A DNA stretch of 64,000 nucleotides from Halorarum salinum (GTDB taxonomy: Archaea; Halobacteriota; Halobacteria; Halobacteriales; Haloferacaceae), in NCBI RefSeq assembly GCF_013402875.1, contig NZ_CP058579.1:682001-746000 (forward strand). The letters are read 5' to 3'. Position 1 is the first letter of the stretch. Every line of letters starts with the position of its first letter. The notes below the pieces were generated by a model. It did no database searches. It worked only from the letters and a program-made list of their open reading frames with translations, and was not told the DNA's origin. Both the position numbers and the translations under genes were made by a program. Positions 57,192-59,366 of the stretch are shown here, in pieces.

Positions 57192-57611
57192 TCACACGAC
57201 CTCCGGCAATACACCTATTACCGCCACCGCCACCGCCACCACGCCGACGACGATGGAGTAGGTGAAGTTCACGAGCGTCCCGGCCAGATACCACGTCGTG
57301 TCGCCGCTGGTCATGTCCTCCCGACGCACGATGGACTTCGCGGCGAACACCAGTCCGAGCGCGGTGTAGGCGCCGACGAACACCAGCGTCAGCACGAGCA
57401 CGTTCTCGCACTTCCCGACGACCCGGCCGGTGTCGCGCTGGCCCTCGTTGACGCCCGCCGTGAGATCGGTGCCGGTCCAGCGCCGGAGGAAGTAGTCGAC
57501 GACGCGGGTGCTCGTCGCGAGCAGGAACGCGTAGCCGAGGAGGTACGTCGTCCCCGCGACGACCGCCGCTCCGGGCCCGCCGGCGACCGGTCCCGTCTGG
57601 AGTATCGTCAC
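57192..57611 (-). CDS. DUF3307-like membrane protein (partner of SatD)
   Basis: 139 residues from GTG at 57611; three or four membrane helices. The segment GRVVGKCENVLVLTLVFVGA then LGLVFAAKSIVRREDM and TTWYLAGTLVNFTYSIVVG follows the C-terminal pattern of DUF3307 proteins, which sit next to satD in bacteria (GxxxGxxER; AAKSxxRF; GTLxSF). The N-terminal catalytic-type part of bacterial DUF3307 is not evident. Starts 26 bases after the satD stop, so it is one operon. Exact role unknown. Confidence 0.65.
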   Translation of the reverse strand: MTILQTGPVAGGPGAAVVAGTTYLLGYAFLLATSTRVVDYFLRRWTGTDLTAGVNEGQRDTGRVVGKCENVLVLTLVFVGAYTALGLVFAAKSIVRREDMTSGDTTWYLAGTLVNFTYSIVVGVVAVAVAVIGVLPEVV

Positions 57612-57637
57612 GGTCCGCTCGGCGGGAGGTGAAAAGG

Positions 57638-58291
57638 TTACTGCCCGCGCTCGTCGGCACCCGACGCGAGCGCGCGGTTCAGTCGCTCCTCCGCCCGGCG
57701 GACGCGATCGTACTGGGCCGCCCGGAGCGTCTTCGAGATGGCCTGCTTGCTCACGCCGAACTCCTCCGCGACGCGCACCTGCGTCCCCTGGACCCGGTAA
57801 GCCCTGGCGACCTCCATCTGTCGCTCGGTCCACCCCTCCCTGACGGCGAGCGCGAGGTCCCCGGCCGCCGTCGCGAGGTCGTCGACGGACGGGTCGCCCG
57901 TCTCGACGACGAAGTTCCCGTCCCCGCTCGCGAGGTCGGCGAGCAGTTCGTCCGCCCGGTGGAACGCGGGGCCGTCCATCGTGCGGACGTCGGTCGAGTC
58001 GGGGTTCACGTCCACCTCGCCGCGCACGACGGCGTAGCGCGCGACGGTCGGGTGGAGCCCCTCCTGGACGGCGCGGACGACGCCGTAGATCGTACCCCGC
58101 CCGGTCAGCGTCCCGCCGAACTCGTCGACGCCCTTCAGGGGGGTGAACGGGGCGCCGACGTCGGCCCCGTACTCGTCGTTCGCGCCCGCGAGCGCGGCCC
58201 GGAGTTCCCGTCGGAGTCGGTCCCGCTCGGGAACGTCCCGGGACCCGACGACGTCGCCCAGTACCACGTACGTCCGTTCGTCCCCCTCCAT
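57638..58291 (-). CDS. satD: SatD-like protein with C-terminal HTH
   Basis: 217 residues. GDVVGSRDV (12-20) and the acidic KGVDEFGG (53-60) match the SatD family pattern (GDIxxSR, then a DEFQ-type box), which resembles a nucleotidyl-cyclase/GGDEF-like fold. The C-terminal part (about 155-192, TERQMEVARAYRVQGTQVRV then SKQAISKTLR) is a helix-turn-helix. First gene of the satD-DUF3307 pair. TATA-like CTATTTACGG sits about 40 bases upstream, with an operator-like inverted repeat between it and the start. ATG at 58291; TTG two codons upstream in frame. Confidence 0.75.
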   Translation of the reverse strand: MEGDERTYVVLGDVVGSRDVPERDRLRRELRAALAGANDEYGADVGAPFTPLKGVDEFGGTLTGRGTIYGVVRAVQEGLHPTVARYAVVRGEVDVNPDSTDVRTMDGPAFHRADELLADLASGDGNFVVETGDPSVDDLATAAGDLALAVREGWTERQMEVARAYRVQGTQVRVAEEFGVSKQAISKTLRAAQYDRVRRAEERLNRALASGADERGQ

Positions 58292-58305
58292 CGTCAATCG
58301 ATTCG

Positions 58306-58327
58306 GGTTGTCCTTCCGGAGACAACC
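58306..58327. promoter_or_regulatory. Inverted repeat between the satD TATA box and start (putative operator)
   Basis: GGTTGTC / GACAACC, perfect 7-base arms, 8-base spacer (CTTCCGGA). It occupies the region just downstream of the minus-strand TATA box (58326-58336). The HTH of SatD makes autoregulation plausible but this is inference. Confidence 0.5.
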
Positions 58328-58368
58328 GTAAATAGGTGACTATCGTCGAACAACGACATCCGGTTTAC

Positions 58369-58378
58369 TCTACGTAGA
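58369..58378. promoter_or_regulatory. Palindrome TCTACGTAGA upstream of satD
   Basis: Perfect 10-base palindrome in the unusually AT-rich stretch 58360-58395, between satD and rio1. TTTACTCTACGTAGACAACT is the context; AACTATATTAGG follows (58380-58391). A possible second regulatory site. Confidence 0.35.
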
Positions 58379-58493
58379 CAACTATATTAGGCTGACTTCG
58401 TTGCCGGTCGCGGACGAGGCAACCCGTTCTCGTCACGGCGTCGCGGCGGGCGACCTGTGGGGCTTTTCACGCCGGGAGACGTAGCGTCGGTGA

Positions 58494-59366
58494 ATGACCG
58501 AAGAGTTCGGCTTCGTCGACCAGGAGGAGGCGGAGGCGCCGGGCGACGAGTGGGAGTCGCTCGACGTCTCCGACGACGAGGCCGACCGCATCGCCCGTCG
58601 GCAGGACGCCGACTTCGACGAGTTCCGCATCCGGGTGAAGGACACCGAGCAGTTCAAGGTCGAGGCGTCGGTGTTCGACGACGCGACGCTCGCGGCCGTC
58701 TACAAACTGGTGCAGGACGGCCACATCGGCGCCTTCGGCGGGCCGGTTTCGACGGGCAAGGAGGCGAACGTCTACGAGGCGCTCGGACACGACGGCGAGG
58801 AGCTCGCCGTGAAGGTGTACCGCATCAACGCCTCGAACTTCCACCACATGCGCGAGTACCTCCAGGGGGACCCGCGCTTCGAGGGCATCGGGTCGGACAA
58901 GAAGAAGGTCGTGCTCGCGTGGGTGCGCAAGGAGTTCGCGAACCTCCGGCGGGCGAAGGCGGCGGGCGTGCGCGTCCCCGAGCCGATCGCAGTCCAGCGG
59001 AACGTCCTCGTGATGGACCTCGTGGGGCACGCGGACGACCGCGCCCGCAGGCTCTCGGAGGTGGAGGTGGAGAACCCCGAAACGGCCTACGAGGTCGTCC
59101 GGGAGTACATGCGCCGGCTCTACTCGGCGGGGCTGGTCCACGGCGACCTCTCGGAGTACAACATGATCATCCACGAGGGGGAGCTGTTCGTCATCGACCT
59201 CGGCCAGGCGGTGACGGTCCACCACCCGAACGCCCGGGAGTTCCTCGAGCGCGACTGCGAGAACGTCGCCTCCTTCTTCTCCCGGCAGGGGCTCGACGTG
59301 ACCGGCGAGGAGCTTCACGAGTACGTCACCCGACCGGAGCCGGAGCCGTCGGCGGATCTGGAGTGA
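58494..59366 (+). CDS. rio1: Serine protein kinase Rio1
   Basis: 290 residues. Atypical RIO kinase for small-subunit ribosome maturation. ATP-loop STGKEANVY (86-94), catalytic Lys107, catalytic HGDLSEYN (216-223) and metal IDLGQ (234-238). N-terminal acidic arm of about 50 residues, as in haloarchaea. TATA-like GGCTTTTCACG about 30 bases upstream of the ATG. The usual eif1A-rio1-KH string is interrupted here by the SatD pair and other genes. Confidence 0.95.
   Translation: MTEEFGFVDQEEAEAPGDEWESLDVSDDEADRIARRQDADFDEFRIRVKDTEQFKVEASVFDDATLAAVYKLVQDGHIGAFGGPVSTGKEANVYEALGHDGEELAVKVYRINASNFHHMREYLQGDPRFEGIGSDKKKVVLAWVRKEFANLRRAKAAGVRVPEPIAVQRNVLVMDLVGHADDRARRLSEVEVENPETAYEVVREYMRRLYSAGLVHGDLSEYNMIIHEGELFVIDLGQAVTVHHPNAREFLERDCENVASFFSRQGLDVTGEELHEYVTRPEPEPSADLE

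Follow-up and report, generated by a model that had tools for sequence, protein, structure and literature searches.

An Operator Array Over the Promoter of a satD-Membrane Protein Gene Pair in Halorarum salinum Suggests an Autoregulated Two-Gene Module

SatD proteins are named from the sat operon of Streptococcus mutans, and a satD gene followed by a gene for a small membrane protein on contig NZ_CP058579.1 of the haloarchaeon Halorarum salinum raises the question of what such a pair does in an archaeon and how it is controlled. The window analyzed here is the whole 64,000-nucleotide stretch from 682,001 to 746,000 of that contig, and coordinates are counted from its first base. An original prediction, made from the sequence alone, had proposed a self-regulated, membrane-coupled signalling or stress module made of a cyclase-like SatD, a DUF3307 protein and operator-like palindromes.

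The satD gene (58291-57638, minus strand) encodes 217 amino acids and matches the Pfam SatD family (PF16264) with 51.2 bits against a cut-off of 29, residues 10-193 aligning to profile positions 4-196 of 211, which confirms the family assignment; the predicted GDVVGSR and VDEFGG boxes are both present. Computed structure (AF2, mean pLDDT 92.3 for SatD) gives residues 7-130 a class III cyclase-like fold, while residues ~134-209 are helical with a helix-turn-helix (HTH) whose recognition helix is 182-191. The best PDB folds for the model are class III adenylyl cyclases, headed by Rv1900c (Foldseek E 1.3e-4, probability 1.00, TM 0.43/0.54) at low sequence identity, with Anabaena uridylate cyclase and Panoptes mCpol among the lower-ranked matches, and the cyclase-like fold expected of SatD is thus borne out by structure prediction. 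The HTH had been taken for an archaeal addition, but the Pfam SatD match spans it and bacterial SatD proteins carry one as well; judged from the sequences, it is a feature of the family. The protein described here therefore shares with that family both membership and the C-terminal HTH, and differs by its pairing with a short membrane protein.

The cyclase fold of SatD is found without the corresponding sequence profile or full catalytic set: no Pfam cyclase match was obtained at E<=1, and a PDB sequence search with the SatD profile returned essentially HTH matches only. Near-invariant residues of SatD are D13, S17, D56, E57, R85, D106 and H111, and R23, G107 and F110 are invariant; D13 and D56 are kept in 46 of 47 SatD proteins, the Asn position is His in 43 of the 47, and the Arg position varies between E, D, T and A. 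With catalytic positions mapped by motif and not by superposition, SatD presumably keeps the metal aspartates, lacks the transition-state Arg and has His in place of Asn. The last two features make ordinary adenylyl cyclase activity doubtful, and nucleotide binding or an unusual product would be more likely. Set beside class III adenylyl/guanylyl cyclases (Rv1900c CHD, 1ybu), SatD is alike in predicted fold, first-strand Asp and hairpin Asp-Glu, and differs in the profile match, the Arg and Asn positions and the fused HTH. Regulators of the CdaR/PucR type (Rv2242, BAD_0249), which join a GGDEF/cyclase-like domain to an HTH, resemble SatD in the degenerate cyclase-like domain and C-terminal HTH and show weak Foldseek similarity, but superpose poorly (rmsd about 14 A). 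We know of no membrane partner and no 28-bp arrays for regulators of that type.

Downstream of satD lies the gene for the partner, a 139-amino-acid membrane protein (57611-57192, minus strand) with four predicted helices (AF2 mean pLDDT 84.4). It starts 26 nt after the satD stop, and an alternative GTG start at 57641 overlaps that stop and leaves no gap. The partner carries a GxxxGKxEN...AAKSIVRxxD...YLAGTL module that is found C-terminally in DUF3307 proteins, has no Pfam match, and in an alignment with 35 homologues corresponds just to the C-terminal ~75 amino acids of full DUF3307 proteins. DUF3307 itself (PF11750) is matched by eight of 36 partner homologues, solely the full-length ones of ~250 amino acids, and was not found anywhere in the H. 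salinum genome. From its sequence, then, naming the partner DUF3307 is wrong in the strict sense, and it equals only the C-terminal membrane half of such proteins. Proteins with the full domain share the C-terminal module (GxxIGxxE...AAKSIxR...GTL) and stand in the same order beside SatD in ten haloarchaeal loci and in Fusobacterium, whereas the N-terminal DUF3307 domain is missing from the window partner and from most haloarchaeal partners. A Foldseek PDB search with the partner model gave no credible match, and neither Pfam nor the AF2 model, which consists of four helices only, revealed a nucleotide-binding domain.

The satD promoter holds an operator array (58293-58396, minus strand) of eight alternating 7-bp half-sites with the consensus GGTTGTC, strict N6/N8 spacers and a 28-bp period. 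Toward the start codon it reads GTCAGCC-TAATAT-AGTTGTC-TACGTAGA-GTAAACC-GGATGT-CGTTGTT-CGACGATA-GTCACCT-ATTTAC-GGTTGTC-TCCGGAAG-GACAACC-CGAATC-GATTGAC-G-ATG. Its best four-copy array reaches a score of 4.61 out of 7, and 1000 dinucleotide shuffles give 3.21 at most. Array scoring places dyads, all on the minus strand, at -11 (GACAACC-CGAATC-GATTGAC, 58293-58312), -39 (GTCACCT-ATTTAC-GGTTGTC, 58321-58340), -67 (GTAAACC-GGATGT-CGTTGTT, 58349-58368; degenerate, and under the threshold of the spacer-composition analysis) and -95 (GTCAGCC-TAATAT-AGTTGTC, 58377-58396), and a TATA-like TATTTA (58329-58334, minus strand) lies across the N6 spacer of the -39 dyad. Two palindromes had been predicted here as separate elements. 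Both are present, but GGTTGTC-N8-GACAACC (58306-58327, minus strand) is the array's two best half-sites facing each other across N8, and TCTACGTAGA (58369-58378) covers one 8-bp spacer and runs 2 bp into the half-site beside it, so that both are fragments of one operator array.

The 4.26 Mb genome holds a single exact GGTTGTC-N8-GACAACC; when as many as two mismatches are allowed it is not rare, with seven sites against four for a control pattern, and a wider regulon built on mismatched copies was rejected as not clearly above this control. Elsewhere in this genome, outside the window, the operator dyad recurs with one mismatch (GGTTGACGCGGTGAAGACAACC, L126). Divergent from satD and about 100 bp from the array is a RIO-type kinase-like gene (58494-59366, plus strand), which is probably outside the module because no third gene is conserved beside satD elsewhere.

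Conservation of the operator in other haloarchaea, which the original prediction called for, was looked for in 48 loci drawn from 46 Halobacteria genomes (one with two copies) and one Bathyarchaeon, and a four-half-site array scores above dinucleotide shuffles in 46 of the 48 (p<=0.05, 60 shuffles each). When the period is left free over 20-40 bp, 43 of the 48 promoters choose 28 or 29 (13 and 30 loci, respectively); of 144 control windows taken at these loci three do so, each of them at 29. Score alone places 26 of the 48 promoters above the best control window, and a six-half-site test, too strict for many loci, is passed by 24 of the 48 at p<=0.01. Inverted repeats number 175 at satD promoters where 24.6 are expected, and the autocorrelation of these promoters peaks at lag 29. 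Promoter-proximal N6 spacers, such as ATATAT, TTTTTC and ATTTAT, are 76% A+T compared with 46% overall. All nine exact ACAACC-N6-GGTTGT sites, in the four genomes having any, fall inside a satD promoter; this uniqueness holds only for that dyad class, since in GC-rich genomes the GTTCGSC variant also matches at places other than satD, and mismatched dyads occur elsewhere too. In the clade with full DUF3307 partners (L038-L049) the dyads often form two pairs, at -117/-88 and -41/-12, which are 47 bp apart and do not make one continuous array.

Half-site letters vary by clade, and computation shows that they change together with the SatD recognition helix. GGTTGTA occurs mostly with QQAVS helices, GGTTGAA/GGTTTAA with [VI]Q-VS, GGTTATA/T with Q[SA]AVS, and GSCGAAC with KSTVS helices and full DUF3307 partners. 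With N-domain distance controlled, recognition-helix and half-site distances are correlated (partial Mantel r=0.51, none of 2000 permutations as high), on a half-site table that was partly assigned by hand, the frames of the window and L011 being corrected and L035, L036 and L037 unused; the value also exceeds all 300 random 7-column sets (maximum 0.48). K or R at SatD residue 182 is accompanied by C at position 7 of the half-site; in the nearest relatives, at 62% identity, residue 182 is T and the last half-site letter is mostly A. On the tree, changes at residue 182 number at least two for K and one for R, and changes of half-site and helix cluster on few branches.

The pairing of SatD with the membrane protein, another part of the original prediction, is conserved as well: among 394 Halobacteria genomes SatD occurs in 46 (BLAST), the partner in 46 (profile) and both in 44, and in many loci the two genes overlap by 4 nt. 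No third conserved gene was found at satD loci beyond locally syntenic neighbours. Decay appears to have reached three of the four exceptions to pairing. One SatD-only locus (L034) carries D13E, S17P, D56E and E57A, and its array persists; the other (L036) keeps its active-site residues and looks intact. The partner-only loci are a frameshifted remnant (L131) and an open frame in which the KSxxR motif has been lost (L130). Such a pattern would be expected were the cyclase-like site and the membrane motif each of importance only for the other, although two cases of each kind are few. At another locus (L132, genome G256) satD and the partner stand ~1.5 kb apart in what looks like an insertion.

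Beyond Halobacteria, a phylum-wide family search recovered SatD from numerous further archaea, in most of which the partner gene lies next to it. L099, L100, L104 and a few more loci have clear arrays; no significant array was found in the 23 remaining SatD loci of L088-L113, which come mostly from fragmentary archaeal genomes and usually have the partner, so the array is not universal. Arrays with 28-bp spacing do occur at loci on Agrobacterium pAt, on a Sphingomonas plasmid and in Bathyarchaeia, all with the partner gene. The two plasmids carry satD with a short partner, the Agrobacterium array reading TTAACCC-N6-GGGGTAA-N8-TTGACCC, and Fusobacterium has satD with a full DUF3307 protein. The pAt pair (L081) sits amid genes for a DUF4365 protein, an annotated antitoxin, an NTase-HEPN protein and HipA, a stretch rich in toxin-antitoxin or defence genes. 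Near-identical modules of the DUF3307 type in different families, together with the plasmid copies, point to transfer of the module between lineages. Two other non-halobacterial archaeal loci (L116, L117) have long open frames that combine a SatD-like domain with TPR- or HEAT-like repeats at their end; no partner was found at either, and L116 has a significant upstream array.

We consider it probable, with some reserve, that these two genes form an autorepressed module, with SatD keeping in check a membrane protein that becomes costly once it escapes regulation. SatD would bind the alternating half-sites every 28-29 bp over its own promoter through the C-terminal HTH, probably as a row of dimers, which would fill successive dyads, cover the TATA region, block TBP/polymerase and repress the operon; the block is suggested by the TATA-like spacer. 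Autoregulation of satD is well supported as an inference, and "self-regulated" and "membrane-coupled", as originally proposed, stand at that strength. Repression would keep expression of the co-transcribed partner low, the state of the cyclase-like domain, through a putative nucleotide signal, would set DNA binding by SatD and/or partner activity, and an unrestrained partner would be costly, so that the module would act like a toxin-antitoxin or effector-repressor pair.

To be essential in the genomes that carry it, yet dispensable in those that do not, is typical of an antitoxin gene or of one that represses a harmful neighbour. Published Tn-seq in S. pyogenes places just one accessory gene within the highest quarter of the essentiality range, namely satD, which 178 of 249 genomes carry (PMC11323703). 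Taken with the order of the genes, their patchy distribution and the decay seen in partner-only copies, this makes the toxin-antitoxin-like reading the best one; toxicity of the partner is putative, and essentiality in S. pyogenes does not prove a cause in the partner gene. Like type II toxin-antitoxin operons, the module has two genes, often overlapping, with the presumed DNA-binding regulator first and an operator array over the promoter; it is patchy and partly plasmid-borne, and according to the literature its regulator is essential yet accessory in S. pyogenes. It differs in that the regulator has a cyclase-like domain and that the partner, whose toxicity is presumed, is a polytopic membrane protein showing none of the known toxin folds.

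The same pairing and gene overlap would also suit a non-toxic sensor-transducer, in which the membrane protein would monitor the envelope and hold back or set free SatD; the latter would be a cyclase-fold transcription factor of its own operon only, for stress homeostasis. The restriction of exact dyads to satD in four genomes fits this, as does the link of S. mutans sat genes to acid stress tolerance as cited in PMC11323703. We regard it as unlikely, since a sensor in control of nothing but its own synthesis would need an active membrane protein to have any output, and by itself this reading leaves both the "essential but accessory" behaviour and the decayed partner-only copies unexplained. 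Still less probable is that the arrays serve another transcription factor altogether, a reading we give very little weight: binding by SatD is something we infer, and such arrays could suit any cooperative repressor, but the half-sites track the SatD recognition helix beyond N-domain relatedness, the arrays travel with the module on bacterial plasmids, and within one genome (G050) two modules (L042, L063) differ in both helix and half-sites.

A pair of the Pycsar, CBASS or Panoptes kind, in which a nucleotide messenger made by SatD gates the membrane protein on phage infection, is suggested by the cyclase fold with its uridylate cyclase and mCpol matches, by the membrane partner, by the patchy occurrence (46 of 394 genomes) and by the neighbours of the pAt copy. 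To our knowledge an HTH autorepressor is not among the parts of such systems. PADLOC gave no significant match (best E 0.04) and the pair did not qualify as Pycsar/CBASS-like; the partner lacks a nucleotide-binding domain and the transition-state Arg position of SatD is unconserved; and SatD and the partner were absent from viral contigs, as were partner homologues from phages (tblastn). We judge a defence role of this kind improbable, between the two preceding alternatives in likelihood, and retain the autorepressed module as the preferred explanation.

The claim that the pair is not described in archaea holds for papers, but NCBI already annotates a "SatD family protein" in Natronosalvus, Halorientalis and Haloplanus, and the "stress" role was proposed on the streptococcal gene name alone. 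The literature searched yielded no operator, structure or archaeal study of the SatD family and nothing joining satD with a cyclase and DNA binding; a table for S. suis labels SatD as DNA-binding (PMC12005413). Both proteins are thus members of known families, and the module logic, operator array and specificity code appear undescribed in that literature. A wider view, which we put forward tentatively, is that SatD and its partner may stand for a class of addiction or defence modules that archaea and bacteria share and that is widespread but undescribed, with a cyclase-fold autorepressor on a 28-29 bp array and control of a small membrane effector through nucleotide binding or synthesis, in which case "secretion and acid tolerance" would be a misnomer. 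The rigid 28-29 bp layout from haloarchaea to alphaproteobacteria, with letters that follow the helix, offers a ready specificity code. A family named from streptococci gains a testable mechanism, and the module offers an explanation for a puzzle in the literature, namely that the lone S. pyogenes accessory gene scored as essential by transposon screens is satD.
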